The notes under the pieces are model-generated. The model was given only the letters and a program-made list of their open reading frames with translations. It was not told where the DNA came from and ran no database searches. Both the position numbers and the translations under genes were made by a program. Below are positions 175 to 14,118 of a stretch of 64,000 nucleotides of DNA, piece after piece (position 1 is the stretch's first letter; each line of letters opens with the position of its first letter). This DNA is from Candidatus Gastranaerophilales bacterium (lineage in GTDB: Bacteria > Cyanobacteriota > Vampirovibrionia > Gastranaerophilales > Gastranaerophilaceae). Location of the stretch: positions 1 to 64,000 of the forward strand of contig CALVAW010000002.1 of the NCBI GenBank assembly GCA_944325655.1. Reading direction: 5' to 3'.

Positions 175-251
175 TGGGGCGGGTAGTGGGATTCGAACCC
201 ACGTATACCGGAACCACAATCCGGGGCCTTAACCACTTGGCGATACCCGCC
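175..251 (-). tRNA. tRNA-His (GTG anticodon)
   Basis: The minus strand folds as a full cloverleaf. The anticodon stem CCGGA/TCCGG holds a seven-base loop with anticodon GTG, and the T arm is GTGGG-TTCGAAT-CCCAC. The extra G at position -1 opposite C73, the hallmark of tRNA-His, is encoded at base 251, and the 3' CCA is encoded at 175-177. A strong promoter lies just upstream and an intrinsic terminator just downstream, so it is a single-gene transcript. It lies next to the phage block, but the phage genes are on its 5' side, opposite to the usual arrangement for integration into a tRNA 3' end. Confidence 0.97.
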
Positions 252-271
252 ATAATTATTTCAAAATAATT

Positions 272-285
272 GCGCCAATTGGCGC
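272..285. repeat. 14-bp perfect palindrome at the start of the tRNA-His transcript
   Basis: The sequence GCGCCAATTGGCGC is perfectly self-complementary. It starts seven bases downstream of the tRNA-His -10 box, so it covers the expected transcription start and first transcribed bases. It could be an operator or a hairpin in the 5' leader of the pre-tRNA; the function is inferred from position only. Confidence 0.6.
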
Positions 286-291
286 CTAGTC

Positions 292-320
292 ATTATACAC
301 TAAACAATCTTAAATTGCAA
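292..320 (-). promoter_or_regulatory. Sigma-70-type promoter of tRNA-His
   Basis: On the minus strand TTGCAA (315-320) is followed after exactly 17 bases by a consensus TATAAT (292-297). The predicted start is near 285, about 34 bases upstream of the mature tRNA. Confidence 0.85.
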
Positions 321-330
321 GAAAACCCCT

Positions 331-358
331 AAAAATTTGTAAGGTCTTACAAATTTTT
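331..358. repeat. 13-bp perfect inverted repeat upstream of the phage late genes
   Basis: AAAAATTTGTAAG (331-343) and its exact reverse complement (346-358) are separated by two bases. It lies between the tRNA-His promoter and the first phage gene. A two-base gap makes it look more like a protein-binding dyad than a transcript hairpin, but a weak terminator is also possible. The rest of 359-470 shows no gene and no convincing plus-strand promoter. Confidence 0.55.
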
Positions 359-485
359 ATCAAAAAACGAGCGATTTTTTAAAAAATATGCTATCTTGTA
401 AAAAGATTTTCGGACAATTCAAATTGGTATCGTCCTGATTATTGGATAGAGAAACGAGGCTGACGAAAACAAGGAGGGAATAACT

Positions 486-869
486 GTGCGTCATTGCAAC
501 AGTGTATTTAGTGCATCTGATATTTGGTTTCTTTTAGATGATGATAAACATGTAAATAAAAGATTATATCTGGCAAATTGCCCGATTTGCGGAAAGAAAA
601 TGGCTTTATATGCCTATTCGGACACTAAAAAAGAAAATTATTTTGAACAATATTTTTACTCCGGTGGAGTTGGAAGAATTAAAGATAAGTTAAAAAAAGA
701 TGTCGTATCTACAATGCTTGGTTTTAAGACAAAATATAAAATGCCTTCAGGATTTAAGTATGGTTTAAATAAAGAAATTAAAAGAAATGGTAAAATTGTA
801 GGTACCAAGCAATATGCTTGTGATTTTTACGGGAATAGGATTTTAGTTAAGAAAACTGAAGATGGATGA
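486..869 (+). CDS. Phage hypothetical protein with a Cys pair, first gene of late operon
   Basis: This 127-residue protein starts at a GTG preceded by AAGGAGGG at a good distance. Residues 32-36 read CPICG, a CxxC knuckle as found in small zinc-binding proteins, but no second complete pair is seen; a lone Cys lies near residue 112. The C-terminal half is basic. The gene overlaps the small terminase gene by eight bases and is therefore part of the late operon. I do not recognise the family. A role near DNA packaging is only suggested by position. Confidence 0.7.
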   Translation: MRHCNSVFSASDIWFLLDDDKHVNKRLYLANCPICGKKMALYAYSDTKKENYFEQYFYSGGVGRIKDKLKKDVVSTMLGFKTKYKMPSGFKYGLNKEIKRNGKIVGTKQYACDFYGNRILVKKTEDG

Positions 870-1176
870 AAAAAAATCCTTAATTTCTTATAAATCTCAA
901 AAAAATACGCTTAAAATGAAGCAAAACCAAAATACTTTCACCGTGGAAGAAGCGCTCGGAGAATTTGATGAATTAAAACAAATTGCCCTGAACTGTCTGG
1001 ATAAAAACGGAAACCCCAATATCTCCGCTGCGCTTCGAGCGGTTGAAAATAAAGCAAAAATTGCAGGTTTATACAGTCAAAACAGTCTCGAGATTGGAAC
1101 TGTCACAAAAATGGGAGAAATTAGGATTGATGGTGAACAATTAAAGTTGAATATTGGAGAAGAATTTATCGGCTAA
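862..1176 (+). CDS. Probable phage terminase small subunit
   Basis: The 104-residue protein lies directly before the large terminase, the usual place of the small subunit that recognises packaging DNA. The middle segment (about residues 45-72: ISAALRAVENKAKIAGLY) resembles the helical region ending in KxxGLY seen in small terminases of tailed phages. The N-terminal 20 residues are Lys/Gln rich. It overlaps the gene before it by eight bases, and its TAA is two bases before the ATG of the large subunit. Length is at the short end for the family. The call rests on this motif and on gene order. Confidence 0.7.
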   Translation: MDEKKSLISYKSQKNTLKMKQNQNTFTVEEALGEFDELKQIALNCLDKNGNPNISAALRAVENKAKIAGLYSQNSLEIGTVTKMGEIRIDGEQLKLNIGEEFIG

Positions 1177-1177
1177 A

Positions 1178-2503
1178 ATGGAATGTTTGGTGATACCGGA
1201 AATTTTAAATATTCCTCCAAAATTATATCCTTTTATTTTTAAATTTAATAATTACAGCTATTTTCTATTGGAAGGCGGCAGAGCTTCCGGCAAAACACAA
1301 AGTGTTGCAAGGTTTTTATTATATATTATGGAAAACAGGCATGTCAGAATTTGTTGCGGAAGAGAAATACAAAATTCAATTAATGAGTCCGTTAAAGCTG
1401 TTTTTATTGATTTAATTGAACAATATAATTTATCTTATGATATTAAACGAGACAGTTTGACTCATAAAATAACGGGTTCGAGAATTTTTTTTAAAGGGTT
1501 TAGAGAACAAGGTAAAGTAAATATTAAAGGGCTTGAAGGTATTGACATTCTCTGGATAGATGAAGCTCAATCAATTGCTAAAACCACGTTAGATGTCATT
1601 GTTCCTACTATCAGAAAGAAAAATTCGGTAATTATTTTTACCATGAATCGATATACCAGATTTGATGCTGTGTATAATTTTTGTGCAAAAAGACAAGATT
1701 GTCTCCATATTAACGTTTGTTACTTTGATAATCCTTATGTTGATGAAAAAATTAAAAAAGAAGCTCAAATATCAAAAGAAACAAACATTTCAGATTACAG
1801 ACATATTTGGCTCGGTTATCCAATGAATAACAACAATGAGTTTTTATTAAGCTCCGATTATATAGATAAATCAATAAATCTTGAATTTGAGGCAGATAGT
1901 GCTTATTTTTATAATTCCGTCATGAGTGTGGATTTGTCTGCTTCAGGTGCGGACTTATGCGTTGCCAAGCTTTTTGTTCAGCAAAATGATACGGTTTGGC
2001 TTGAAAAAATTACAAAAAGTTGGTCTGAATCCGATACGGATATTACAAAAGGAAAGATTATAAGTTTGTATTCGGAATGGTCTCCGAGATTGCTTATTTT
2101 AGATGCAGACGGTCTTGGTTATCCGATTTGGGTTAGTATTCAAAAAATCGTAAATTCTGCAGTCGGATTCAGGGGAGCTGCTAAGCCAATTTCAAAATTT
2201 GCGATAAATGCACGTGCAGACGGTTATCTGGCGCTTAAAGACTATTTGGAAAAGGGATATTTAAAATTAACCGATAAAAATGCTTTAAGACAGCTTGAAT
2301 ACATTAAAAAAATATATAAACCTAATGGTTTAATTGCTATTCAAGATAAGAAAGAAATAAGAAAACTTCATAATGAAAGCCCTGATTTTGCAGATTGCGT
2401 AATGATGGCTTTATATGCAATAAATTATTGCACAAATGTTATTATACGTGAGTCAAATACATATAATTCTCTTGTTGAAAGTGAATTTGAACCATTTGAC
2501 TAA
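1178..2503 (+). CDS. terL: Phage terminase large subunit (packaging ATPase/nuclease)
   Basis: This protein powers DNA packaging into the procapsid and cuts the concatemer. Numbered from the ATG at 1178 (441 residues), the Walker A motif is GGRASGKT at 33-40 and the Walker B is ILWIDEAQ. The C-terminal RNase H-like nuclease domain shows its acidic residues in SVDLSASG, ILDADGLG and DFADCVMMAL. The overall form is that of the PBSX/Terminase_3 type used by many temperate podoviruses. A TTG at 1154 in the same frame would add eight residues, but it lies inside the small subunit gene with no ribosome site. All key motifs are intact. Confidence 0.93.
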   Translation: MECLVIPEILNIPPKLYPFIFKFNNYSYFLLEGGRASGKTQSVARFLLYIMENRHVRICCGREIQNSINESVKAVFIDLIEQYNLSYDIKRDSLTHKITGSRIFFKGFREQGKVNIKGLEGIDILWIDEAQSIAKTTLDVIVPTIRKKNSVIIFTMNRYTRFDAVYNFCAKRQDCLHINVCYFDNPYVDEKIKKEAQISKETNISDYRHIWLGYPMNNNNEFLLSSDYIDKSINLEFEADSAYFYNSVMSVDLSASGADLCVAKLFVQQNDTVWLEKITKSWSESDTDITKGKIISLYSEWSPRLLILDADGLGYPIWVSIQKIVNSAVGFRGAAKPISKFAINARADGYLALKDYLEKGYLKLTDKNALRQLEYIKKIYKPNGLIAIQDKKEIRKLHNESPDFADCVMMALYAINYCTNVIIRESNTYNSLVESEFEPFD

Positions 2504-2519
2504 ATAGAAAGGAAAATTT

Positions 2520-2717
2520 ATGTGTTTTATTAAATCTTCTACCCCTGTTTCCGCTCAGGTAGAAACAACTCAAGTTGAGCGCAAACAGGCTGATGCAAGT
2601 GTAACAAAATCTTCTCAAAGTCAAAGACTAAGAGGCTATGAACAAAATATTAAAACCTCTCCGGTCGGCTTGACGGACAGCGCTAATACTGAAAAGAAAA
2701 CACTTTTGGGAGAGTAA
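2520..2717 (+). CDS. Small conserved podovirus protein between terminase and portal
   Basis: The 65-residue protein starts at ATG after AGAAAGGAAA. It is Ser/Thr/Gln rich, with a C-terminal pattern QRLRGYEQN...SPVGLTD...KKTLLGE. Small proteins starting MC or MCF and ending in a (T)LLG(Q/E) motif are commonly found at this place, between terminase or portal genes of T7-like and BPP-1-like phages. Their role is not established to my knowledge. The match in place and C-terminal motif supports a real gene despite the small size. Confidence 0.75.
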   Translation: MCFIKSSTPVSAQVETTQVERKQADASVTKSSQSQRLRGYEQNIKTSPVGLTDSANTEKKTLLGE

Positions 2718-2720
2718 AAA

Positions 2721-4355
2721 ATGACATTTTATAATGTTGAATATTTTCAAAAAAGAAAAAAAGAGATGGAAGATGTTTTTAATAACATCAAACCTGATTT
2801 GCAAGAGCTTGCGGACTATTATTCGCCAAGAAGCGTTCAATTTATAGCAAGAAATGTGAGAAAGCCTATTGTAAAAAACAAAAAAATTATAGATTCAACT
2901 CCTTTAATTGCGTTGAGGAATTTTTCTTCAGGCATTATGTCAGGCGCTACAAGTCCTTGTTATCGTTGGTTTAAAACTTCTTTTTCAAATGCAGATGTTA
3001 ACAATGATTATTATTTAAAAAAATGGTGTGCGCAGCAAGAGGAACTTACTCGTCAAATATTGTACAGCTCTAATTTTTATCAATGTTTGCCTGAGGTATA
3101 TAAGCAGCTCGGAATTTTTGGTTTTAGTGCAGTTTCTCTGGAATCGGATTTTGATACTATTGTTAATTTTAAAGTGCTTCCCATAGGCTCATATTATTAT
3201 GCTAAAAACTCAAAAGGAAAAATTGACACTTTTTGTCGAGTTTATATGGAGACTGCACAAAATATTGCAGAAAAATTTAAGAATAATTGTCCGTCGGAAG
3301 TGCTTGAGGCAGCTGTAAATAATCCATTAAAATTGTATGAACTTGTTCATTTTGTTGAAAAAAATAAGTTTTATAAAAAGCGTCATTTATCATCGAAATT
3401 TTCTAAGTATGTTTCTGTTGTTATACTTTCAAATAAGAATGAATTTTTATCAATTAAAGGCTTTGACAAGTTTCCTTATGTTGTATTTGAAAGCGCTTTT
3501 TCATCAGATATCGATTATCCGCAGGATTCTCCCGGAATAAATGCCTTGGCAGATGTTAAACAGTTAATGACAATGGTTAAGGAATATGCTAAAGCTGTTA
3601 AAAAAATTGTTTGCCCGACATATAAAGGGCCTGCTACCTTAAAAAACAAAAAATTAGCAGATGTTCCAGGTGCTTACATTGAAGAAGATGAAAACGGCCG
3701 AGGAATAAGCCCTGTTTATGAAGTTAATCCAAGAGTGCTTGAGTTGAAACAGGAAAAAGATGAACTTAAGCAGGCAATAAAAGAACATTTTTATAATGAT
3801 TTATTTGCAATGATTTTAACTACAGCTGAACGAGGAAGGACGGCAACTGAGGTTAATGAATTAAAAGAAGAAAAAATGGTTCTTTTATCTCCTCTTTTGG
3901 AGCAAATCCACAGTGCATTAAGACAAATTCTTAACTGGATATATGAAGAAGAAATTCGAGTCGGAATATTAAAGCCTTTAAAACCGCAATATCAAAATTG
4001 CAGATTTGAAATTGAGTTCGTTTCAAGCCTTGCACAGGCGCAAAAAGTTTCGAATATTTCAAGTATGGAACGTTTTACAACATTTGTATCTAATATTGCA
4101 AATGCTATAGATCCGATTTTAAAATCAAAATTAAACGGTGAAAAAATTATTGAAGATTATGCTAATTACGCAAATATTGATCCGACACAGATTGTTCCTA
4201 CTGAGGAGATTGAAAAAATTAAAGAACAGAATGCAAATAATCAAAATCTTCAAATGCAACTGGACGCTATGAAACAAGGCAGTCAAATTATACAAAATAT
4301 GGGAGGAGTAGACTCTCATGGTGCTGATTTGTTGTCAAGATTTGGAATTATATAG
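2721..4355 (+). CDS. Phage portal (head-tail connector) protein, podovirus type
   Basis: The 544-residue protein matches the podoviral head-to-tail connector family in length and layout. The N-terminal region contains STPLIALRNFSSGIMSGATSP, as in that family, followed by the WF and LY-rich clip and wing regions. A helical region around residues 360-420 includes FYNDLFAMI and TATEVNELKEEK. The C-terminal 60 residues are Gln/Asn rich and probably form the barrel. It forms the dodecameric ring through which DNA enters and leaves. The gene begins three bases after the stop of the small protein. A GGGAGTAAAA site precedes its ATG. Confidence 0.9.
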   Translation: MTFYNVEYFQKRKKEMEDVFNNIKPDLQELADYYSPRSVQFIARNVRKPIVKNKKIIDSTPLIALRNFSSGIMSGATSPCYRWFKTSFSNADVNNDYYLKKWCAQQEELTRQILYSSNFYQCLPEVYKQLGIFGFSAVSLESDFDTIVNFKVLPIGSYYYAKNSKGKIDTFCRVYMETAQNIAEKFKNNCPSEVLEAAVNNPLKLYELVHFVEKNKFYKKRHLSSKFSKYVSVVILSNKNEFLSIKGFDKFPYVVFESAFSSDIDYPQDSPGINALADVKQLMTMVKEYAKAVKKIVCPTYKGPATLKNKKLADVPGAYIEEDENGRGISPVYEVNPRVLELKQEKDELKQAIKEHFYNDLFAMILTTAERGRTATEVNELKEEKMVLLSPLLEQIHSALRQILNWIYEEEIRVGILKPLKPQYQNCRFEIEFVSSLAQAQKVSNISSMERFTTFVSNIANAIDPILKSKLNGEKIIEDYANYANIDPTQIVPTEEIEKIKEQNANNQNLQMQLDAMKQGSQIIQNMGGVDSHGADLLSRFGII

Positions 4356-4365
4356 GAGATTTATT

Positions 4366-5298
4366 TTGAATAATGAAAATTTATTAAAGAGCATTTCATA
4401 TCTTGAATTTATTAATAATATTGATAATTTGGTTTTTGAATTATTATATGCTCCTCAAGGCGGATTTACGGGTTTGATGTCAAAAAATGCGGTTTTGAAC
4501 GCTAAAGGGTTTCTTGATAAATTTAATTATGAAGCTGAAAAATTAAGAAAGCAATTCGATTTTGATTGTGCTGACAGAATAATTGAAGAAAAAAGATCAG
4601 ATTTAATAAAACAGATGAAAAAACATTATGATAAACAAACATTTGCCTGGGCAGATGAAGTGTATCAGAGTATGTTAAATAATTGTTTTTTATTGGCATC
4701 AGTGTTTAAAGATGATAAAGATGTTAAAGATAAAATATATGCCAGAATTTTATCTTGTGTTTCTTGGATTTCAGAAATCAGAGGCTTAAGCGAAGAACAG
4801 TCCGGTAATTTAATAGAGTTAAATTTAGAAAAATTTTATAGTGCAGTTAATTCCAAAGATTCTGATTTTATGCCAAAAGCTGACAAAAACAGAAGCGACG
4901 ATAAAGTATTTATACAATTAAGGGATTTGATACTAAAAGACAAAGATAAGTTTCTGCAAACCGATTTTGTTTCTTTGAATGACAAACTTTCTCAAGAGGA
5001 TATAAAGTATTTCAACAGAATTAAAAACGATATTCAAACATTTAGAATTAATTCTGTTAAAGATGATATATTACTTGTTAATAGCGCTATTGATGTTTTA
5101 AAAATTAAAGATGCAGAGAAAAAATATGCATTTATTAAATTGATAGACAATGATTTTAGTGATTATACGGTTCAAAATAATAAAAAACCGGATGAAACAA
5201 ATAAAATCGAACTTGTTAAAAGAAGAATGAAGTTATTTAAAAATTCATTGCAAAACGATAATATATCAGAATATTTTAAAAACAAAATTAATTCTTAG
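4366..5298 (+). CDS. Phage hypothetical protein between portal and scaffold
   Basis: The start is taken as TTG at 4366 because TAGGAGAT lies seven bases upstream. Upstream in-frame codons as far as 4318 fall within the portal gene and have no ribosome site. The product has about 310 residues, is highly charged and probably almost all helical, with no signal peptide or membrane segment. Its place between portal and capsid genes suggests a role in head assembly, perhaps an internal or scaffold-related protein. I do not recognise the family, and this is inference from position. Its end overlaps the end of the opposing gene by 11 bases. Confidence 0.75.
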   Translation: MNNENLLKSISYLEFINNIDNLVFELLYAPQGGFTGLMSKNAVLNAKGFLDKFNYEAEKLRKQFDFDCADRIIEEKRSDLIKQMKKHYDKQTFAWADEVYQSMLNNCFLLASVFKDDKDVKDKIYARILSCVSWISEIRGLSEEQSGNLIELNLEKFYSAVNSKDSDFMPKADKNRSDDKVFIQLRDLILKDKDKFLQTDFVSLNDKLSQEDIKYFNRIKNDIQTFRINSVKDDILLVNSAIDVLKIKDAEKKYAFIKLIDNDFSDYTVQNNKKPDETNKIELVKRRMKLFKNSLQNDNISEYFKNKINS

Positions 5299-5716
5299 AA
5301 TGTGTAATTGTGCAATATTTTGGATTTGCAAGATACTTTTGAAAAACTTCGCCGTTGGAGGTTAGTTTTGCTTCATATATATTGTTTTTTGCTAATTCTT
5401 TTTTAAATATCTCGCTATATTTCTCCATAGAACTCGACATGAAAGGAAGTTGTCCTTCGTCAAAATTGCAGGTTAACATTTGATATTCTTTACCTTGATA
5501 AATTTTTTCTTTATATACACATTTCCCGTTTTTTGCTTTTTCAAGGGTAATAAGAAGATTGAATACTTCGTTATTTTTTTCAATACTGCCTGTTTGAGAG
5601 AATTTTTCGCATGTTTTGAGCGCTTTTGAGAAATTTGTTTGCATTGCAAAAGCCGTGTAACAGCCGGATACTACGCAAAATACGGTTAGGATAATTAAAA
5701 AAGACATTTTTTTCAT
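5288..5716 (-). CDS. Small lipoprotein encoded against the phage late operon (moron candidate)
   Basis: The 142-residue protein begins with two lysines, a hydrophobic stretch and VVSGC at residues 15-19, a lipobox. Cleavage after AFA a few residues later is also possible. The mature part is small, charged and contains three further Cys residues, one in ENGKC-like and one in LTCNF context, which suggests a disulfide in an exported protein. The gene has GGGGAG before its ATG and its own extended -10 promoter. It is the only gene in the phage block on the minus strand. Independent transcription of an envelope protein inside a head-gene block is typical of phage morons expressed in the lysogen, for example for superinfection exclusion. 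The specific function is unknown. Confidence 0.75.
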   Translation of the reverse strand: MKKMSFLIILTVFCVVSGCYTAFAMQTNFSKALKTCEKFSQTGSIEKNNEVFNLLITLEKAKNGKCVYKEKIYQGKEYQMLTCNFDEGQLPFMSSSMEKYSEIFKKELAKNNIYEAKLTSNGEVFQKYLANPKYCTITHSKN

Positions 5717-5740
5717 AATACTTAACTCCCCTTTAGTTTA

Positions 5741-5749
5741 ATTATATCA
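5741..5749 (-). promoter_or_regulatory. Extended -10 promoter of the phage-borne lipoprotein gene
   Basis: On the minus strand the sequence TGATATAAT (TG-n-TATAAT) ends 24 bases before the lipoprotein start codon. No good -35 is seen, as is common for extended -10 promoters. It lies just ahead of the scaffold gene, so transcription starts against the late operon. Confidence 0.65.
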
Positions 5750-5766
5750 CAAAAGAAAGGATAAAA

Positions 5767-6318
5767 ATGCAACAGGAAATTAAAAATCCGTTACGATTGG
5801 ACGGAAATGACGAGAATTTATTTGGTATGCCCGAGAAATATGATTGTTCAAAATTTCAAAACCTAGAAGGGTTTAGTTTGGATGAAGAATTGTTAGCTCA
5901 ATTTTTGCCGATAGCCAAGAAATTAAATCTTTCACAGGCTTCTGTAGAGATGCTTTTAGAAATTGCACTTAATATGTCGAAAAAACAAAGTTTAATGTTT
6001 CAAAAAGACAGTGAACTTAAAATGCAGGATAAAATGACTAATTATTATAAAAAATTCTGTCAGGATAGTGAACTTCCGGACCCGAATACACCGGCTGTCA
6101 AGGAATTTATGCGAATTGCCGACGGTGCATATAATGAGTTTGCCTCTGCCGAATTAAAACAAACATTTAAAGAAACCGGTCTGAATTATGACCCGGAGTT
6201 AATAAAAATGTTTTATAAAATCGGTGAATTGGCTCAAGAAGATAATCTTTCGCATTATGGAAAGCCGGCTTTTGAGGAGTTGACCCCCGCACAGATTTTA
6301 TACGGAAAAAATGATTAA
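5767..6318 (+). CDS. Probable phage scaffolding protein
   Basis: The 183-residue acidic, helical protein sits directly before the major capsid gene, the standard place of the scaffold. The C-terminal part contains NYDPELIKMFYKIGELAQED and then TPAQILYGK. A YDPxxxKxFxxIGxxLxED segment followed by a short (T)PAxxLYG tail is familiar from podoviral scaffolds. The first 60 residues are polar. AGAAAGGA precedes the ATG, and the stop is 13 bases before the capsid ATG. A role as chaperone of capsid assembly is inferred from order and motif. Confidence 0.75.
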   Translation: MQQEIKNPLRLDGNDENLFGMPEKYDCSKFQNLEGFSLDEELLAQFLPIAKKLNLSQASVEMLLEIALNMSKKQSLMFQKDSELKMQDKMTNYYKKFCQDSELPDPNTPAVKEFMRIADGAYNEFASAELKQTFKETGLNYDPELIKMFYKIGELAQEDNLSHYGKPAFEELTPAQILYGKND

Positions 6319-6330
6319 TAAGGAGGAAAA

Positions 6331-7326
6331 ATGTCAGTAGTTGGAAATACTTATTTAACTTTAAAAGACAAATTTGCACAAAAAGAAAACGGTAGAATTG
6401 CAACTACCATTATTGATTTGCTTTCGCAATCAAATGTAATATTGGAAGATGCCGTTGTTAGAGAATGTAACGAAGGCTCTACTCATAAAACCACAGTAAG
6501 AAACGGATTGCCCGAAGTAGAATTTAGAAAATTTTATCAGGGTGTTGCTTCTTCAAAAGGTGAATATACGCAAATAACTGATACAACCGGTATGTTAGAG
6601 GTATATTCTCAAGTTGATAAATCTTTAGCTGATTTAGAGGGAGACACTCAACAATTTAGAATGAATGAAGCACAAGCTTTTTTGGAATCCATGAATAATA
6701 CGGTTCAAGAAAATATTTTTTATGGTTCTAAAGCTACTAATCCGGCAGGATTTGACGGCTTAGCGGTAAGATATAATAAATTATCCAATGACCCTGCTTC
6801 AATTGGCTATAGAGTTTTGGACGCAGGCGGTACGGGAAATACCAATACTTCTATTTGGTTTGTAACTTGGGGTGATTTACACACGCATTTGTTATATCCA
6901 AAGGGTTCTCAGATGGGACTTGTTCATACTGATAAAGGAGCTCAAACCGCTACTGATGCTAATGGAAATATGTTTGAAGTATATAGAGACCACTTTAAAT
7001 GGGATATCGGTATGACCGTTCGTGATTTTCGTTCCACTGCCAGAATAGCAAATATTGATGTTGAAGAATTGTCCGGAAATGAGCCTGCGGATTTAATTAA
7101 ATTGATGATTAGCGCTTATCATAGAATTAAACGTTTTGCAAAAACAGGACAAACCGTAATTTATTGCAATGAAACAATTGAAACTTATTTGCATTTTCAA
7201 GCAATTAATAAAAATAATGTTAAACTTTCTGTTGATGAATTTGCAGGCCGTCCTATTGTTTCATTCCTGGGAATACCGGTTAAATGCGTAGATCAAATTA
7301 GAAATAACGAAAAAGCAGTTTCATAG
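6331..7326 (+). CDS. Phage major capsid protein, BPP-1-like
   Basis: The 331-residue protein has the length of the BPP-1 Bbp17-type HK97-fold capsid protein. Features are a polar N-terminal arm, then MNEAQAFLESMNNTVQENIFYG (helix about 118-139) and the family-typical FDGLAVRYNKLS. A C-terminal part follows with RPIVSFLGIPVKCVDQI, the P-domain strand. AAGGAGGAAAA gives a very strong ribosome site, as expected for the most abundant protein. The scaffold lies before it and a cement protein after it. Confidence 0.9.
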   Translation: MSVVGNTYLTLKDKFAQKENGRIATTIIDLLSQSNVILEDAVVRECNEGSTHKTTVRNGLPEVEFRKFYQGVASSKGEYTQITDTTGMLEVYSQVDKSLADLEGDTQQFRMNEAQAFLESMNNTVQENIFYGSKATNPAGFDGLAVRYNKLSNDPASIGYRVLDAGGTGNTNTSIWFVTWGDLHTHLLYPKGSQMGLVHTDKGAQTATDANGNMFEVYRDHFKWDIGMTVRDFRSTARIANIDVEELSGNEPADLIKLMISAYHRIKRFAKTGQTVIYCNETIETYLHFQAINKNNVKLSVDEFAGRPIVSFLGIPVKCVDQIRNNEKAVS

Positions 7327-7345
7327 TGAAAAAATAGGAGGAAAA

Positions 7346-7738
7346 ATGTTATTAGATGCACAAAATTTATTTTCAGATGCTCAACAAATTACGACCGGAA
7401 CAATTTATTCAACAAATACCGTAAAATTTGGTAAAAATGATGTTTCTTTCGTTCCGATTATTATACAAGTTGTGAATGATTTTACAAACCTTACAAGTTT
7501 AAAAGTGTCTATACAAACTTCGGACAGTGAAACTTTCACTTCTTCTTCTGATTTAGCAACTTCTACTCTGTCTTTAGCTGATTTAAAAGCAGGCAAGAAA
7601 TTCCCAATTTCTTATTTGCCAAAAGGCAATAAAGGCTATATAAGACTTGCATATACAGTTACAGGCACAGAAGAGACTACAGGAGCTATTACTGCCGGTG
7701 TCGTTGCATCGGATGAACTTAGCTATCATGAGATGTAA
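7346..7738 (+). CDS. Bbp16-like capsid cement protein
   Basis: The 130-residue beta-rich protein has the family layout of Bbp16 from Bordetella phage BPP-1. It starts MLLDAQNLFSDAQ, has a central TSLKVSIQTSD, then LKAGKKFPISYLPKG and YIRLAYTVTG, and ends in TGAITAGVV. It binds the outside of the shell and stabilises the capsid. The AGGAGGAAAA site repeats the one before the capsid gene. A terminator follows, so capsid and cement are the last genes before a likely step-down in transcription. Confidence 0.87.
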   Translation: MLLDAQNLFSDAQQITTGTIYSTNTVKFGKNDVSFVPIIIQVVNDFTNLTSLKVSIQTSDSETFTSSSDLATSTLSLADLKAGKKFPISYLPKGNKGYIRLAYTVTGTEETTGAITAGVVASDELSYHEM

Positions 7739-7757
7739 TTATTTTTTAAGTTGTCAT

Positions 7758-7782
7758 GTGGGCTTTTTAGCCCACTTTTTTT
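7758..7782 (+). terminator. Intrinsic terminator after the capsid genes, inside the late operon
   Basis: A GTGGGC/GCCCAC stem with a six-base loop is followed by seven T residues. All genes on either side run in the plus direction, so it is probably a partial terminator, as T7 has after its capsid gene. Confidence 0.8.
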
Positions 7783-7805
7783 AATAATAATGAAAGGATT
7801 GTTAA

Positions 7806-8324
7806 ATGTGTACACCATCGGCTATCAGCAACAGTATTAATGTTGCTGCAAATATTTTCGGTCAGGTTAATACAATTTCTAATGTGGTAAACGAATCCAA
7901 TTACAGAACTCAGCTTGCCATAAATAATGCAGAAAGTGCCAAAAATGAAGCATTGCGTCAGAGGCAGCTCGGAATAAATGAAGCACGTCGTGAAAAATTA
8001 CTGGGCATAAGACAAGCAAGTACTCTGGCTGCTAAAAATGCAGCAAGCGGGCTGGATATCTCAAGTGAGACAAACTATTACGGTTATGAAGATATTATTG
8101 ATACCGCATATTCAAATGCTCAAACTATTCAAGATAACTATGATTTAAAAGCAGACAGTTATATGGAAAAAGCAAACAGCTACTTGGATTCTGCTCGAAT
8201 GAACAATAAAAGCACCAAGAATTATCTTTTAAATTATGCTCTAACAGGTTTGGGTGATGCTGCTGCAGCTGCATCAAATTGGTATAAAAAGCGAGAAGGG
8301 GGTGATGTATTTGACTTATTCTAA
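7806..8324 (+). CDS. T7 gp14-like internal virion protein
   Basis: The 172-residue protein starts MC, is Ala/Asn rich and helical, and carries a long amphipathic central region (ALRQRQLGINEARREKLLG). T7 gp14 has a similar start (MCWAA) and composition; it leaves the head first on ejection and helps form the channel across the outer membrane. The large partners gp15 and gp16 are not present here, so the ejection apparatus is either minimal or uses other proteins. AAAGGA precedes the ATG. The similarity is in composition and layout and needs a profile search to confirm. Confidence 0.65.
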   Translation: MCTPSAISNSINVAANIFGQVNTISNVVNESNYRTQLAINNAESAKNEALRQRQLGINEARREKLLGIRQASTLAAKNAASGLDISSETNYYGYEDIIDTAYSNAQTIQDNYDLKADSYMEKANSYLDSARMNNKSTKNYLLNYALTGLGDAAAAASNWYKKREGGDVFDLF

Positions 8325-8904
8325 AGCTCAAATTTTTAATATTGCTCTTAATATTCTGGGTGTTTCAACCCCGTTAGAAAATGCAAATTCATCTGATAAT
8401 CGTGCAATTTTGCTAAATAATTATTATTTTTTAGCTAAAGATTACGTTTTAAAGGATTTTGATTGGAATTTTGCCAGTACTTTTAAGGAATTGTCTTTGG
8501 TTGAAAATCCTAAATTGGTTTCTAAATATAACTATTGTTATGATTATCCGAATGATTGTGTCTGTGCAAGGGATATTTTTCAAAAAGGCGATTACAGGCT
8601 TCAAAAATTTTCAATTGCATCAGTTGCTACTGGCGAGAAAGTAATTTATACGAATGCAGAGCAAGCAATTTTAAGGTATACGAGAAGAATAGATAAAGAA
8701 ATTTATTTCAGTTGTGAGTTTTCAATGGCATTGGCATATTATCTTGCTTCCTTGACATCAAATGTTTTAGTTGGAAGCATACAAAAAGGTGAGGCTGCAT
8801 ATCAAAAATATTCTCAAATTATCAAACATGCAAAAGTATTGAATGCCGGAGAAGGAACTGAAGAAATTTATGATGAAAACACATATTTGGATGCAAGGAG
8901 TTAA
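8311..8904 (+). CDS. Tail tube A-like (gp11-type) adaptor protein
   Basis: The start is set at TTG 8311, giving MTYSKAQIFNIALNILGV, the usual opening of tail tubular protein A/adaptor proteins. The AAGGGGG site is eight bases upstream. An ATG at 8305 would put that site too close. About 197 residues. The region LLNNYYFLAKDYVLKDFDW is also typical of the family (LRxxYxxARDxVLxxxxW). The protein sits under the portal and joins the head to the nozzle. It overlaps the end of the gp14-like gene by 14 bases. Confidence 0.85.
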   Translation: MTYSKAQIFNIALNILGVSTPLENANSSDNRAILLNNYYFLAKDYVLKDFDWNFASTFKELSLVENPKLVSKYNYCYDYPNDCVCARDIFQKGDYRLQKFSIASVATGEKVIYTNAEQAILRYTRRIDKEIYFSCEFSMALAYYLASLTSNVLVGSIQKGEAAYQKYSQIIKHAKVLNAGEGTEEIYDENTYLDARS

Positions 8905-8906
8905 AT

Positions 8907-10967
8907 ATGAGTGTTAGAGTTAGTCAAAATTCTTTTGCAAGAGGTATTATTTCTCCTTCGTTATGGGGTAGGGTTGATCTTGAACAGTATTCTCTCGGTT
9001 TAAAAGAACTTAAAAACGGAATTGTTTTGCAGGAAGGTTGCGTAGTAAACCGACCCGGGCTTGAATTTCTTGAAAAAACTAAATATCAAAATAAAAAATG
9101 CAGATTAATTCCTTTTGTATTTAATTTGGAGCAGAGTTACATAATTGAGGCGGGAGATAATTATTTTAGGTTTATTAAAGACGGCGGTTATATTTTAACA
9201 AGTGAAAATGAAATTTATGAAATTGAAACTCCCTATAGTGAAGATATATTGTTTGAAATAGATTATGTGCAACAGGCAGATGTTTTAACCATTGTTCATA
9301 AAAATCATGCGCCGATGGAATTGTCTAGAATTGATCATGATAATTGGGAATTAAACAGTATCAATTTTAAACCTTCGGTTAACCCTCCGACGAATGTCGC
9401 TGCTGTTTTTACCGGCAGTACAAGTTCAAATACGACAACTTATTGGTATTTGGTTTGTTCGGTTGATCCTAACACAAATGAAGAAAGCGTTCAAAGTACT
9501 GTAGTTGGAGTAAAAGCCCATCTTGAAGCCTATTGGACAACTTCTGAATACGTTACTATATCTTGGACTGCAGCACAAAATGTTTCAGAATATAATATAT
9601 ACAAAGCTGTAAATGGAATTTTTGCTTACGTTGGTACTTCAAGCTCAACATCCTTTGTTGATAATAATATAGAACCGGATTTAACAAGCTGTTCACCAAA
9701 ATATAAAAATCCTTTTGTAACCGAATTTCCGTCTTGTGTTTGTTATTTTCAGCAAAGAAAAGTATATGCATGTTCTACAAATTCACCTCAGACATTCTGG
9801 GCAAGTCAAAGCGGTACCAATAATAATTTTAATGTTTCGCGCCCTCTAAATGCAACTGATGCTATTTCCATGTCTGTTTATGATAATGTAGCAAATCAAA
9901 TTCAACATTTAATTCCTCTTAACGATTTATTGGTTATCACTACAAATGCAGAATGGGCAATAAACGGTTCGGATGGTGTGTTTAGTGCTTCACCTGCTCC
10001 GGTTGCAAACCTGCAATCATATTATGGCGCATCTAAAATAAAACCGGTTGTTTCTGGTTCTATGGTTTTATTTGTTCAATCGGGCGGAAATATTTTGCGT
10101 GATTTAGGATATAATTATTTGTCCGATTCTTATGACGGAGAAGAGCTGACCCTTCTTGCAAGTCATTTGTTTGAAGGCAAACAAATTGTAGATATGGCTT
10201 ATTCAAAAGAACCATATAGGATTGTTTGGTGCATTATGAATGACGGTACGATTAATGCGCTTACTTATAATCCGAAACAGAAAATTATGGCTTGGCATAA
10301 TCATATTACAAACGGCTATTTTGAAAGTGTTGCGACTATCAGAGAAAATAATGAGGATATAGCTTATTTTGTTGTAAAAAGAGTTATAGATGGCAGCGAA
10401 GTTCGTTATATTGAACGCTTTAAATCCAGAGTTATAGATTCTATGGAGAATGCTTTTTTCTTGGATTGTGCTTTAGAAAAAAAATTCGATTCAAAAGTCA
10501 GCACCGTTTCAGGTTTGGAACATTTAAAGAATACGGAAGTGATGGGTTTATTGGATTATGGAGTAGTTGAAAATCTTGTTGTTGATGAATTTGGAAGTGT
10601 TGAACTTCCTTATGAAGCACAAAATGTTTTAATCGGTATACCTTATACTTTTGAGTTAGAGACATTAAATATTGAAAGCGAGAATACTCTTGGTATAAAT
10701 AAGATTATTAACAAAGTAGATGTTAAAATTTTAAATTCCAGAGAGGACTTTTTTATTGCAAATTCCGATAATACTCTTTCGCAGAACGCAAGAAGCTATG
10801 AAAGTGTTAATTATCCAAATCTTTTGTTCGATAAGGATGTTGAATTTTGTCCTTTTTCAAATCCTACATTGCATGCAAACGTAAAAATTGTTCAGAAATA
10901 TCCGCTGCCTTTAAATATTTTATCTGTTTCCGCCACAATTTCTTTAGAAGAGGTTGAGCAGATATGA
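8907..10967 (+). CDS. Tail nozzle (tail tube B-like) protein with fibronectin-III-like insert
   Basis: The 686-residue protein begins with the family pattern FARGIISPSLWGRVDL and LKNGIVLQEGCVVNRPGL, found in nozzle/stabilisation proteins of many podoviruses. A beta-sandwich segment at about residues 155-255 (NPPTNVAAV ... YNIYKA ... TSFVDN) looks like a fibronectin-III-type domain. The rest is beta-propeller-like, with repeated FWASQSG, YGASKIKPV and LLASHLFEG elements. It forms the tip of the short tail. The stop overlaps the next ATG (ATGA), so translation of the two is coupled. Confidence 0.85.
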   Translation: MSVRVSQNSFARGIISPSLWGRVDLEQYSLGLKELKNGIVLQEGCVVNRPGLEFLEKTKYQNKKCRLIPFVFNLEQSYIIEAGDNYFRFIKDGGYILTSENEIYEIETPYSEDILFEIDYVQQADVLTIVHKNHAPMELSRIDHDNWELNSINFKPSVNPPTNVAAVFTGSTSSNTTTYWYLVCSVDPNTNEESVQSTVVGVKAHLEAYWTTSEYVTISWTAAQNVSEYNIYKAVNGIFAYVGTSSSTSFVDNNIEPDLTSCSPKYKNPFVTEFPSCVCYFQQRKVYACSTNSPQTFWASQSGTNNNFNVSRPLNATDAISMSVYDNVANQIQHLIPLNDLLVITTNAEWAINGSDGVFSASPAPVANLQSYYGASKIKPVVSGSMVLFVQSGGNILRDLGYNYLSDSYDGEELTLLASHLFEGKQIVDMAYSKEPYRIVWCIMNDGTINALTYNPKQKIMAWHNHITNGYFESVATIRENNEDIAYFVVKRVIDGSEVRYIERFKSRVIDSMENAFFLDCALEKKFDSKVSTVSGLEHLKNTEVMGLLDYGVVENLVVDEFGSVELPYEAQNVLIGIPYTFELETLNIESENTLGINKIINKVDVKILNSREDFFIANSDNTLSQNARSYESVNYPNLLFDKDVEFCPFSNPTLHANVKIVQKYPLPLNILSVSATISLEEVEQI

Positions 10968-11440
10968 TGAGAATTAAAATAACCAAAAAAAATCTGAATA
11001 TTTTTTTTGATGATTTAAGAAAAGAAGATTTGGATGAACTATATTTTACATTTAAAAAAAATTTAAGAGATAAATTTATAAAAATTTGTTTAAAAACGCC
11101 GGATACATATTTTCTTGCAGACGATTACGGTTATCCGCTTGCAATAGGCGGAATTAAGAAAAAATTAATAGATAACATAAAAGTCGGGCAGGTTTGGTTT
11201 TTAAGCAGTAATAAGTTTAAAAAGAATAAAAAAGCCGTTCTTAAATATATTAAAAATAAAATTTTTACTTTTAAAAATGAATGTGATATTTTATTTAATT
11301 TCATTTATAAATCTAATTTTGGTTTTTTAAAATGGCTATATGTCCTTGATTTTAAAACAATTGATATAAATGAAAATTTGAAATTATTTTACTATAGCAA
11401 AGGAGACGTGAAGATTGATTTACGATATATTACCGGTTAA
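10964..11440 (+). CDS. T7 gp13-like protein with GNAT-like fold
   Basis: The 158-residue, very Lys-rich protein shows the pattern of the gp13/DUF2833 family. A helix in DLRKEDLDELYF is followed by PLAIGGI and GQVWFLSS, a beta-strand order like that of acetyltransferases. The T7 protein is needed for virion assembly. Position between nozzle and tail fibre agrees with T7 order. Start is ATG 10964, with a second ATG immediately after it. The end overlaps the tail fibre gene by 26 bases. No evidence of enzymatic activity can be read from the sequence. Confidence 0.65.
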   Translation: MMRIKITKKNLNIFFDDLRKEDLDELYFTFKKNLRDKFIKICLKTPDTYFLADDYGYPLAIGGIKKKLIDNIKVGQVWFLSSNKFKKNKKAVLKYIKNKIFTFKNECDILFNFIYKSNFGFLKWLYVLDFKTIDINENLKLFYYSKGDVKIDLRYITG

Positions 11441-12437
11441 TAATTACATAGGTAACAACAGTAATACAACATTTGACTTTGATTTTTATATTGAAAACGG
11501 AAATCAATTAAAAGTTTATCATTTTAATCAAAACGGAATAAAAACCCTTTTGACTGAAGGAATCGACTATTCGGTGAATGAGTTTAAAAATGCTAACGGC
11601 AGTTATATTAATTTTCCTATTGAGGGTTCTGAATATTCTATTTTGCAATCGAATGAAAAAATTTCATTAGAGCTTTCTTTGACTGCATCTCAAGAAACTC
11701 AATATAATAACAGCTCGCTTTTGAATTTAGAGTCTTTAGAATATTCGCTTGATTATTTAACAAGATTAATACAAATTTTAGCCAGAAAAATTCAATTATG
11801 CGTAAAGGTAGAAGAATGTTCGGATAACACTCCTGAAGAGTTGATGAATACTTTGAATACTCAGGCAGCCAGTGCAACGAGCGCAGCAGAGTCTGTTCAG
11901 AGTGCATTGCAGTCCATTAATCAAATGAATACAGCTATTACAAGTGCTTATAATTATATACAATCAAAAGAATATAAATATGACAAAATAGATGAAATAG
12001 AATCTGATCTTCAAGAAGTAGTATCAGATGTTGAAACAAAAGCATCGACGGATTTATCCAATCTGACTGACACAGGAAAAAGTTATGCTACCGAATTAAG
12101 TTTTCCGCTTTATAAATACGGAAAAATCGGTGCTACTCAATATTCTGTTTGGACTACGGTTTCACAAGACACCATGCTTGTAGTTGCAACTAAAAATGCA
12201 GGTACTTCGCAAAATTTTGCCGTTGCTATAATTGACGATCAGGGACAACATTTTCCAACAATTGGTGATAACGGTGTTTTTGTTCAATACCAGTCGTATA
12301 CAAATAGCAGCAGTTCTGGGTATATATGTACTTTATTAACTTTTGTTCCCAAAAATTACAGTTATTTTGTTAGAAATTTGGGTTCAACCAGTTTTGTTAA
12401 ATGTATTGAATATCCAATGAGAGGAAGTGCAGTATGA
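11415..12437 (+). CDS. Tail fibre protein with T7 gp17-like N-terminal domain
   Basis: The start is TTG 11415 with GGAG nine bases upstream. Residues 1-100 contain NNYIGNNSNTTFDFDFYIEN and VYHFNQNGIKTLLTEGIDY, the N-terminal virion-attachment domain of T7-type fibres. Then comes a helical, Ala/Ser/Gln-rich shaft (about 145-215: AASATSAAESVQSALQS). The C-terminal 125 residues (IGATQYSVW ... SYFVRNLGST) should carry host binding. At 340 residues it is short for a fibre. No C-type lectin-like end and no reverse transcriptase cassette are seen, so this is not a BPP-1-like diversifying fibre. Confidence 0.82.
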   Translation: MIYDILPVNNYIGNNSNTTFDFDFYIENGNQLKVYHFNQNGIKTLLTEGIDYSVNEFKNANGSYINFPIEGSEYSILQSNEKISLELSLTASQETQYNNSSLLNLESLEYSLDYLTRLIQILARKIQLCVKVEECSDNTPEELMNTLNTQAASATSAAESVQSALQSINQMNTAITSAYNYIQSKEYKYDKIDEIESDLQEVVSDVETKASTDLSNLTDTGKSYATELSFPLYKYGKIGATQYSVWTTVSQDTMLVVATKNAGTSQNFAVAIIDDQGQHFPTIGDNGVFVQYQSYTNSSSSGYICTLLTFVPKNYSYFVRNLGSTSFVKCIEYPMRGSAV

Positions 12438-12904
12438 TATATTTTGATGAAAATAAAGAAGCTTATGCTCAATTAGAAACTTTGCAGAAATGGGGTAAAA
12501 CTCTTTTAACCACATGTAGTGATGAAGAATATAGCGAGTTTATGATGGGAAAAAGAATTTGGCAAGGCAACAGTTTAGTTATTAATCCTAATTATGAAGC
12601 GGAGCAAGCTCAAAAGGAAGCTGAACGAATTGCCATGTTAAAATTAACCAGAGGTGACGTATTTAGAGGTATTCTTCAGGCAAAAGGCGTTACAAGAAGT
12701 GATATAAGAGCACAGCTAGAAGCTATGTCATCTTCAACAGACGAAGAAAAAATTGCAAAAGAACTTGCGTTGATTGATTTTGATGAAGCGCTTGATTTTT
12801 ATAGAGGCAATCCTTTAATTGATACGGTTGGAGCAGCTTTGGGAATTTCAAGCGAGAAACTTGATAATTTTTTTGAAACCGGAGACTATACAAAACTTAT
12901 TTAG
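12434..12904 (+). CDS. Phage hypothetical protein after the tail fibre
   Basis: The 156-residue protein overlaps the end of the fibre gene by four bases (ATGA), so the two are translated together. The N-terminal third is helical and ends in a charged EAEQAQKEAERIAM segment. The C-terminal part contains TRGDVFRGILQAKG and IDFDEALDFYRGNPLID, ending in a small helical domain. Proteins at this place are often fibre chaperones or are carried with the fibre, and that is the best guess. I do not recognise a named family. Confidence 0.7.
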   Translation: MIYFDENKEAYAQLETLQKWGKTLLTTCSDEEYSEFMMGKRIWQGNSLVINPNYEAEQAQKEAERIAMLKLTRGDVFRGILQAKGVTRSDIRAQLEAMSSSTDEEKIAKELALIDFDEALDFYRGNPLIDTVGAALGISSEKLDNFFETGDYTKLI

Positions 12905-12926
12905 TTTAATTTATTAGGAGATATTA

Positions 12927-13385
12927 TTGCTTAATTGGTATTCTGATTCTTCACTTGAAATCATATTTAGCGATTATCCTGATATTTCTGTTTTATATGC
13001 CACGCCTGATATATCCAAAAAAGCTTTAAAAAAAATTAATAAAAAGCCTTTTTGTCTGGAGCTTGAATTGGATGTTATTTTGAAAGATTTTGAAAATGAA
13101 AAAGTGTATGAATTTTCAATCCCTGCTAAATACTGTTGGGATGGGGCGAGTATTCCAAGATTTTTTTGGAGATTAATAGGTTCAAAAAGCGATCCTCGAT
13201 TTTTGGTTCCAAGTTTGATACATGATATATTGTGCGAAAATCATTGTTATGTTAATAATGACAGATATTTTTCAACTCGTGTATTTGAGCGTCTTTTATA
13301 TGTTTCAGGTGTGTGTCCATTTAACAGGTGGCTAATGTTTCATTCTGTAGATAATTTTCAAAAATTTTGCAAGTGGGGGGTGTAG
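12927..13385 (+). CDS. DUF1353 family phage protein
   Basis: The start is TTG 12927 with AGGAG six bases upstream. The centre reads KYCWDGASIPRFFWRLIG and then PSLIHDILCENH, the signature of DUF1353, common in tailed phages near lysis genes. The function of the family is not established. The protein has 152 residues and no signal peptide. Its TAG overlaps the GTG of the holin-like gene. Confidence 0.8.
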   Translation: MLNWYSDSSLEIIFSDYPDISVLYATPDISKKALKKINKKPFCLELELDVILKDFENEKVYEFSIPAKYCWDGASIPRFFWRLIGSKSDPRFLVPSLIHDILCENHCYVNNDRYFSTRVFERLLYVSGVCPFNRWLMFHSVDNFQKFCKWGV

Positions 13386-13642
13386 TGGAACATTTATTTG
13401 AATATGCACCTTTTGCACTATTTGTTATAAATCTTTTATTGTGTTTGAGGATTTTTGCCAGAACGGAAGATATGAATAATTTGAAAGCAGAGTTGATGAC
13501 ATACGGTATGGAACATTTTGTTACGAAAGACACTTATTCTGACAATCATAAGGCTTTGCAAGATCAAATGTTACAAATTCATTCCGATATTTCGGATGTT
13601 AAAAATTTGCTTATTAGCTCAATAAATAGGAACAGAGAATAA
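13385..13642 (+). CDS. Holin-like small membrane protein
   Basis: The GTG at 13385 shares two bases with the stop before it and follows a run of six G residues. The product has 85 residues. Residues about 8-24 (APFALFVINLLLCLRIF) form one membrane segment. The rest is a charged coiled coil (LQDQMLQIHSDISDVKNLL). One N-terminal membrane helix plus a coiled coil directly before an endolysin fits a class II/III-type holin or spanin-like lysis protein. Which of these it is cannot be told from sequence alone. Confidence 0.65.
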   Translation: MEHLFEYAPFALFVINLLLCLRIFARTEDMNNLKAELMTYGMEHFVTKDTYSDNHKALQDQMLQIHSDISDVKNLLISSINRNRE

Positions 13643-14044
13643 ATGGGTAAATTAAATTTTAAAATTTCAGAATTTATTGAATCTGACGTTGCTAAGAAAA
13701 ATTCAATTAATAATTTTCCGGATATTCAATCTTTGGACAATATATTAAATTTAATTGTTTTTTGTATGCAGCCAATCAGAGATTTGATTAATGCACCTGT
13801 TATTATTACTTCAGGTTATAGATCTGCTTCGGTTAATAAACTGGTCTTGGGGGCAAATAATTCTCAACATTTAACCGGTCAAGCCGCCGATTTTATTGTT
13901 AAAGGAATGTCGCCGAGTGAAATAATTGCTGTTATTAAAAATTCAAAAATTGAATTTGATCAATTGATAAATGAATATAACAGATGGGTGCATGTATCCT
14001 ATAATAGTGTTAAAAACAGAAATCAGATTTTAAAAATTTTATAA
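13643..14044 (+). CDS. M15-family peptidase endolysin
   Basis: This 133-residue enzyme cleaves peptide bonds in peptidoglycan at the end of the lytic cycle. The M15_3 motifs are intact: SGYRSASVN, then SQHLTGQAADF with the zinc ligands His and Asp, and WVHVSY with the third His. The N-terminal KISEFIESDVAKKN is the usual small helix. There is no signal peptide, so export depends on the holin-like protein encoded just before. The start codon follows the previous stop directly. A strong terminator after it ends the late operon. Confidence 0.9.
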   Translation: MGKLNFKISEFIESDVAKKNSINNFPDIQSLDNILNLIVFCMQPIRDLINAPVIITSGYRSASVNKLVLGANNSQHLTGQAADFIVKGMSPSEIIAVIKNSKIEFDQLINEYNRWVHVSYNSVKNRNQILKIL

Positions 14045-14052
14045 TTATTTAG

Positions 14053-14081
14053 ATGCAGTCAAAATTTTGACTGCATTTTTT
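14053..14081 (+). terminator. Terminator of the phage late operon
   Basis: A 24-bp perfect palindrome (two 12-bp arms reading ATGCAGTCAAAA and its complement) is followed by a T-run. Confidence 0.85.
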
Positions 14082-14092
14082 GTGTATAAAAA

Positions 14093-14118
14093 AAATGTTT
14101 GAACAAAGTCAAACATTT
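14093..14118 (-). terminator. Minus-strand terminator hairpin with no visible gene
   Basis: AAATGTTTGA and its complement pair over a six-base loop. On the minus strand the hairpin runs into a T-run, so it would stop transcripts coming from 14119-14310, where no reading frame of note is seen. Confidence 0.6.

Follow-up and report, generated by a model that had tools for sequence, protein, structure and literature searches.

Why would a bacterial chromosome carry a complete set of podoviral packaging, head, tail and lysis genes with no integration or replication genes in sight? This question is raised by the left end of a window of 64,000 nucleotides (the whole stretch of DNA analysed, to which all coordinates refer) from a Candidatus Gastranaerophilales bacterium; a 92.7 kb contig begins at base 1 of the window, and the genome measures 1.69 Mb. 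The original prediction, made from the letters of the window, left two answers standing: either the early half of a prophage lies left of base 1, with a tRNA-His gene inside the prophage, or a late module has been retained, such as a satellite helper, a killer particle or a gene-transfer-like element. Our results argue for the last option, and the locus is probably a domesticated, vertically inherited, podovirus-derived element resembling a gene transfer agent (GTA). This option is supported by fixation of the module at one site throughout a genus, by purifying selection on its genes and by the loss of the DNA-binding domain of the small terminase (TerS) in comparison with cognate prophages.

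The genus of the window, here called g1, was sampled with 28 species, and 165 genomes from other genera of the family served as comparison. The portal gene of the module was present in all 28 g1 species, full length, without internal stops and in one copy each (a partial second one in G017 aside), compared to only 7 of the 165 other-genus genomes (Fisher p ~2e-27). Apart from insertions in G010 and G013, the gene order of the module is identical across g1. Sequence upstream of the first module gene is present on 24 g1 contigs. In 22 of them an antisense tRNA-His gene stands at a distance of 219-577 bases from that gene, and the remaining two contigs stop after 198 and 482 bases. The second, partial module copy of G017 (G017:C30, locus L097) encodes a TerS identical to that of G003 and is likely a contamination of the metagenome-assembled genome. 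The IMG/VR database lists g1-type modules as viruses, namely L175 (IMGVR_UViG_3300011008_002753) and L176 (3300029305_012104), with capsids 84-86% identical; both are probably pieces of host chromosome.

The absence of early genes to the left cannot be read from the window itself, since its first base is that of the contig, and was therefore read from orthologous loci. In G001, G005, G008 and G010, with contigs of 152-415 kb, ordinary host chromosome flanks the module on both sides, with host genes left of the same tRNA-His, so that the idea of an early half beyond base 1 does not hold. Neither early genes nor a module-associated recombinase were found in the orthologous flanks of g1, and attachment repeats were not found either, the longest direct match between the module ends being 10-12 bases in four species. 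From the window it had been read that the 3' end of the tRNA-His faces away from the module and that no repeat of it occurs at the right. The four tyrosine-recombinase-family matches of the window's genome are all located on other contigs. The glycosyltransferase genes seen at the right end proved to be a local feature, as this pair is the right neighbour in the closest relatives only (G000, G001, G014, G021), whereas 14 of the 19 contigs extending over the right end have an HD-domain gene in this place. Because the HD/PlsC/Skp block sits on the left side instead in G001 and G004, an inversion must separate the two flank states. A 4.1 kb contig (G000:C55, locus L003) holds the PlsC/Skp/tRNA-Ser block that is found left of tRNA-His in these two species and is probably the chromosome piece immediately left of base 1; a DNA match between the window and this contig was considered as an attachment site and rejected as tRNA similarity, a tRNA-Ser lying beside the PlsC/Skp genes. 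Across the same tRNA-His, on its 3' side, G018 (L063, contig C17) and G020 (C2:649-2286) have unrelated integrative elements, whose large serine recombinases measure 510 and 545 amino acids; the element of G018 also has dUTPase- and methylase-like genes. This marks the tRNA-His as a hot spot of integration on its side facing away from the module.

In g1 the module is vertically inherited and kept functional by purifying selection. Within the six-species clade containing the window, median dN/dS amounted to 0.023 for the capsid, 0.026 for the portal and 0.041 for the large terminase (TerL), compared to 0.021 for rpoB. The most constrained genes of the module include those of terminase, portal and head; the fibre, gp13-like and gp14-like proteins, which we group as host-facing or target-facing, reach about 0.3. 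Distances between modules correlate with those between hosts, for which a tree was built from rpoB, uvrB and valS (Mantel r 0.69, 0/5000 permutations), and module and host trees have 7-8 of 20 splits in common, where the DNA and protein trees of the host itself share 10.

A portal search in 383 genomes of the order recovered the gene mainly from g1 and from one more genus, g41, where the module is contained in 40 of the 41 genomes and in each of the 26 near-complete ones. There it typically sits between rlmH and an aspartokinase gene, without early genes in the loci read. Sporadic copies occur in the genera g7, g8, g14, g32 and g35; where the reading extended far enough, they proved to be real prophages, equipped with a recombinase of the serine or tyrosine type, a helix-turn-helix (HTH) repressor, early genes in reverse orientation and a giant gene. 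Additional prophage-type copies stand at separate places in the g41 genomes G283 and G451. In the G058 prophage (L087:697-8838, minus strand) we observed a polyvalent protein of 2714 amino acids with ART-PolyVal (ADP-ribosyltransferase-like) and nucleotidyltransferase domains, which is absent from the fixed modules. In a phylogeny of five proteins, the g1 modules form one clade (support 100) beside nine prophages, and g41 together with a single g13 genome forms another (100) beside other prophages, giving two separate fixed clades nested among prophages (Shimodaira-Hasegawa-like approximate likelihood ratio test, SH-aLRT, 99-100). Because the tree thus sets g1 and g41 among different prophages of one phage family, separate domestication of their modules is the simplest reading.

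The fixed and the prophage copies differ in TerS. All 13 prophage-type proteins are 155-177 amino acids long and start with an N-terminal HTH region, whereas the fixed-module proteins (23 copies from g1 and 13 from g41/g13) have 93-124 amino acids, align only beyond the HTH and lack it in 36 of 36 cases. The Pfam family Terminase_2 matched four of four prophage-type TerS tested, from about residue 8, and gave no match to the fixed-module proteins tested, those of the window and of G075. A structural model of the G268 prophage TerS possesses a confident N-terminal domain (predicted local distance difference test, pLDDT, ~90), which matches the DNA-binding domain of SF6 TerS (2cmp/4zc3) with a probability of 1.00 and a target TM-score of 0.80-0.83; the model of the window TerS shows only two downstream helices. 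Misannotation of the start codon was considered and rejected, given an in-frame stop 5 codons upstream in the window and 1-5 codons upstream in g1 species. The best-covered matches of TerL include the headful phages Sf6 (28% identity) and HK620, and its ATPase and nuclease catalytic residues are almost invariant among 51 sequences; we infer that it packages by the headful mode. The TerS of all known GTAs is likewise devoid of an N-terminal DNA-binding domain (PMC6854486, PMC11841831). Having lost its recognition domain, the terminase would have no means to select its own DNA, and since the part recognising viral DNA is removed, the module most likely makes particles that ship host DNA between cells.

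The module itself occupies 486-14044 and consists of intact, full-length podoviral packaging, head, tail and lysis genes, of the same base composition as the adjoining chromosome (GC 0.318 vs 0.314). Pfam and phrog matches show that the predicted late operon from terminase to endolysin, with its BPP-1-like capsid and Bbp16-like cement protein, is real and full length, and none of its genes codes for an integrase, repressor, primase or polymerase, as had been claimed. Its limits and orientation needed correction: the operon proper starts at 486 and not at 175, because 175-250 is the host tRNA-His gene, and one of its genes (5288-5716) lies on the minus strand. The features are as follows.

175 to 250, minus strand: tRNA-His (GTG), found with ARAGORN; host gene that marks the fixed site, with the 3' end directed away from the module
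486 to 869, plus strand: zinc-ribbon-like small protein with a GTG start, first gene of the module; a homologue is likewise first in the prophages and in g41
862 to 1176, plus strand: small terminase TerS, 104 amino acids, without N-terminal HTH; aligns with the C-terminal part of prophage TerS (Terminase_2), and an HTH would not fit upstream
1154 to 2503, plus strand: large terminase TerL (PF04466, 3e-26), Walker A/B motifs and nuclease aspartates intact; best-covered known phage matches Sf6/HK620
2520 to 2717, plus strand: small conserved protein (phrog_831)
2721 to 4355, plus strand: portal or head-tail connector (PF12236, 6e-90; phrog_332, 3e-95), the gene counted in the 28 species
4318 to 5298, plus strand: protein clustering with a larger one (436-740 amino acids) located 3' of the tail genes in prophages and g41; the g1 version is shortened and relocated
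5288 to 5716, minus strand: counter-oriented protein with an apparent signal peptide, found in each of the 28 g1 species but in neither prophages nor g41
5767 to 6318, plus strand: head protease/scaffold-type protein (phrog_458, 7e-27)
6331 to 7326, plus strand: major capsid protein of the GP7 (epsilon15/BPP-1) family (PF20911, 2e-127), 46% identical to that of epsilon15
7346 to 7738, plus strand: Bbp16-like cement protein (PF21190, 1e-11)
7806 to 8324, plus strand: T7 gp14-like internal virion protein (phrog_418, 4e-13)
8302 to 8904, plus strand: tail protein (phrog_394, 8e-34)
8907 to 10967, plus strand: large tail protein (phrog_376, 6e-193)
10964 to 11440, plus strand: gp13-like internal virion protein (phrog_308, 4e-17)
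11415 to 12437, plus strand: tail fibre with conserved N-terminal attachment domain (phrog_1640, 2e-10)
12434 to 12904, plus strand: conserved phage protein (phrog_6034)
12927 to 13385, plus strand: DUF1353 protein (PF07087, 3e-12)
13367 to 13642, plus strand: holin-like small membrane protein, assigned by position and length, without a strong family match
13643 to 14044, plus strand: M15 peptidase endolysin (PF08291, 6e-21); a different lysin stands at the same place in other species

The signal-peptide protein at 5288-5716 could be an exclusion, immunity or surface factor.

Upstream of the operon, a putative control region contains the following features.

337 to 352, no strand assigned: perfect 16-base inverted repeat TTGTAAGGTCTTACAA, candidate operator, recognised in an alignment of upstream regions; variants occur at the same place in most species
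407 to 469, plus strand: conserved leader RNA hairpin with two near-invariant blocks and covariation, ending a few bases before the Shine-Dalgarno sequence

The inverted repeat is the only exact copy in the genome, looser matches being at control level, and reads TTGTACNNNNGTACAA in several species, a form that loosely resembles a cyanobacterial LexA box. When the palindrome TTGTAAGNNCTTACAA was searched with two mismatches, matches did not rise above the reversed control, the nearer ones that were looked at lying in or beside ordinary genes, so that no regulon is claimed. The leader blocks TTCGGACAATTCAAATTNGTAT and GAGAAACGAGGCTGACGA, which lie between tRNA-His and the first gene, hardly vary among the 24 g1 contigs that cover them and form the two arms of the hairpin, with an outer helix UUUUCG/CGAAAA (407-469) and an inner helix. 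Compensatory changes affect both helices: two from T-A to A-T, five from C-G to T-A, distributed over two pairs, and four from T-A to C-G. The first block has no second copy in the window's genome, and among 2.9 million viral contigs the blocks occur in one, itself a g1-type module; Rfam gave only tRNA and chance-level matches to the leader. Palindrome-rich inserts of about 75-260 bases are present in G005, G006, G012, G013 and G018, all in the apical loop between the arms. The g1 leader was not found upstream of prophage copies or g41 modules. The latter are preceded by a different conserved leader, AAGATTTGAATTAAGACT...CGAAAAGGTGACTGGATTCGTTAAGTC (e.g. G075), which possibly forms an analogous RNA structure. 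Because the GTA CcGTA uses anti-termination (PMC11150451), this mechanism is one lead for the role of the g1 leader.

Together these observations incline us to the view that one family of temperate podophages became GTAs twice and independently, in two genera that belong to a single bacterial family, and by the same steps, i.e. loss of the early and giant polyvalent genes, excision of the DNA-recognition domain of TerS and gain of a lineage-specific leader RNA. From the gene content we infer production of particles, random packaging of host DNA, release by lysis and uptake by kin. The operon would be switched on via the conserved leader RNA and probably the operator, upon which procapsids assemble; TerL would start packaging without a pac site and fill the heads with DNA of the host chromosome; lysis of the producer cell would be due to the endolysin and the holin, and short-tailed particles would carry the DNA to related cells. 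The modules of g41 would have been domesticated independently along the same path. Of the GTA features that can be read from a sequence, the module shows all but one, the bias in amino-acid cost that characterises the alphaproteobacterial elements.

An ordinary prophage in an intact or decaying state, with its early half beyond the window, is suggested by the contig end at which the window begins, by the occurrence in other genera of related true prophages that possess early genes, a repressor and a recombinase, and by the tRNA-His attachment site of the distant relative BPP-1. For the genus it is refuted by the host genes on both sides of the module in sister species; early genes, attachment repeats and size decay are absent and the reading frames are kept in 28 species, and we regard this explanation as very improbable. 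Slightly less credible still is a self-propagating phage with a split genome, whose early genes reside elsewhere in the chromosome and are packaged with the late module: further phage-like genes may exist elsewhere, and the four tyrosine-recombinase-family matches are indeed on other contigs, but a TerS devoid of its recognition domain cannot select its own DNA, and a fixed site without any sign of mobility across the genus is not phage-like. Least probable of all is that closely related phages integrated independently, species by species, at one and the same site. Although tRNA genes are integration hot spots and the serine-recombinase elements of G018 and G020 lie across the same tRNA-His, the g1 modules form a single clade with 100% support that follows the host tree, no recombinase or attachment sites accompany them, they stand 5' of the tRNA, and all of them have the same leader and the relocated genes at 4318 and 5288 in common.

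The options of a killer particle and a satellite helper, which had also been put forward, fare somewhat better. A domesticated particle with another job, either a DNA-free or poorly filled killer or a capsid donor for satellites, kept for competition, would be supported by the same fixation and selection evidence; faster evolution of the fibre, gp13-like and gp14-like proteins would be expected if it targeted changing neighbours, and the conserved secreted protein at 5288-5716 could be an immunity or exclusion factor. However, terminase, portal and head genes belong to the most constrained ones and TerL has kept its motor and nuclease residues, a packaging motor being unnecessary for killing. 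Moreover, TerS has been retained with its DNA-recognition domain specifically stripped, and this twice; an intact headful terminase with a de-specified TerS is explained less well in this way. No satellite was seen in the loci read, which were not searched systematically for satellites. We consider this alternative unlikely. A GTA-like element nevertheless has several points against it. The evidence for it comes from sequence throughout, and neither a regulator nor a receptor-binding specificity was identified. Other genes have been inserted between terminase and portal in G010 and G013, and well-supported tree conflicts for G016 and G005 make an occasional exchange of modules between species likely. 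The model of the window TerS has low confidence (pLDDT 59). Finally, GTAs of the alphaproteobacteria are biased to energetically cheap amino acids; this signature was not found here, and the g1 proteins are slightly costlier than their prophage homologues.

Among known systems, FpGTA of Faecalibacterium is a podovirus-like, GTA-like element that was published earlier and for which particles and roughly 9 kb DNA were shown experimentally (PMC12946183). Compared by description only, the g1 module resembles it in having a gut bacterium as host, short-tailed-phage-type genes and no replication genes in the operon, in being genus-wide (the 10.5 kb core operon of FpGTA is present in 12 of 12 genus genomes examined) and in encoding a TerS without an obvious DNA-binding domain (PMC12946183). 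It differs in belonging to another phylum and in keeping head, tail and lysis genes together, whereas the lysis and tail genes of FpGTA form a second operon about 125 kb away. With RcGTA, which descends from headful packagers (PMC7947584), and its relatives, the module shares the nature of a vertical phage-derived cluster without replication genes, a headful-type TerL and a TerS without N-terminal HTH (PMC6854486, PMC7947584, PMC11841831); unlike RcGTA, it possesses short-tailed structural genes of the GP7/epsilon15/BPP-1 type, resides in Gastranaerophilales, a non-photosynthetic cyanobacterial lineage, and lacks the low-cost amino-acid signature. The GP7 capsid, Bbp16, the Head-tail_con portal and the phrog_376/394 tail proteins are shared with BPP-1, epsilon15 and the prophages G058, G033, G268, G283:C5 and G283:C7. 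These are complete, however. In addition to early genes and a giant polyvalent protein, the prophages read possess a recombinase, a repressor or both, and their TerS bears an HTH; all of this is missing from the fixed modules.

What appears to be new is the lineage of the host and that of the capsid, the domestication in replicate and the presence of prophage relatives side by side with it, and no paper combining GTAs with Gastranaerophilales was found in the literature searched. GTA-like elements would thereby be extended to a non-photosynthetic cyanobacterial lineage that is common in the guts of animals, and to the epsilon15/BPP-1 capsid lineage. GTAs are hard to distinguish from defective prophages, and here prophage and domesticated versions of one family can be compared. 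What separates the fixed modules from the prophage copies is exactly the TerS domain that is proposed to decide between packaging of the 'own genome' and of 'any DNA', so that the rule for identification of GTAs proposed in PMC6854486 becomes testable by phylogenetic replication, and a short TerS within a genus-wide fixed late operon offers a cheap criterion for genome mining. If domestication indeed took place twice, the family would represent a replicated natural experiment on the conversion of a virus into a gene-exchange organ of its host, with the prophage cousins still residing in the same hosts, as in G283 and G451, which carry both.

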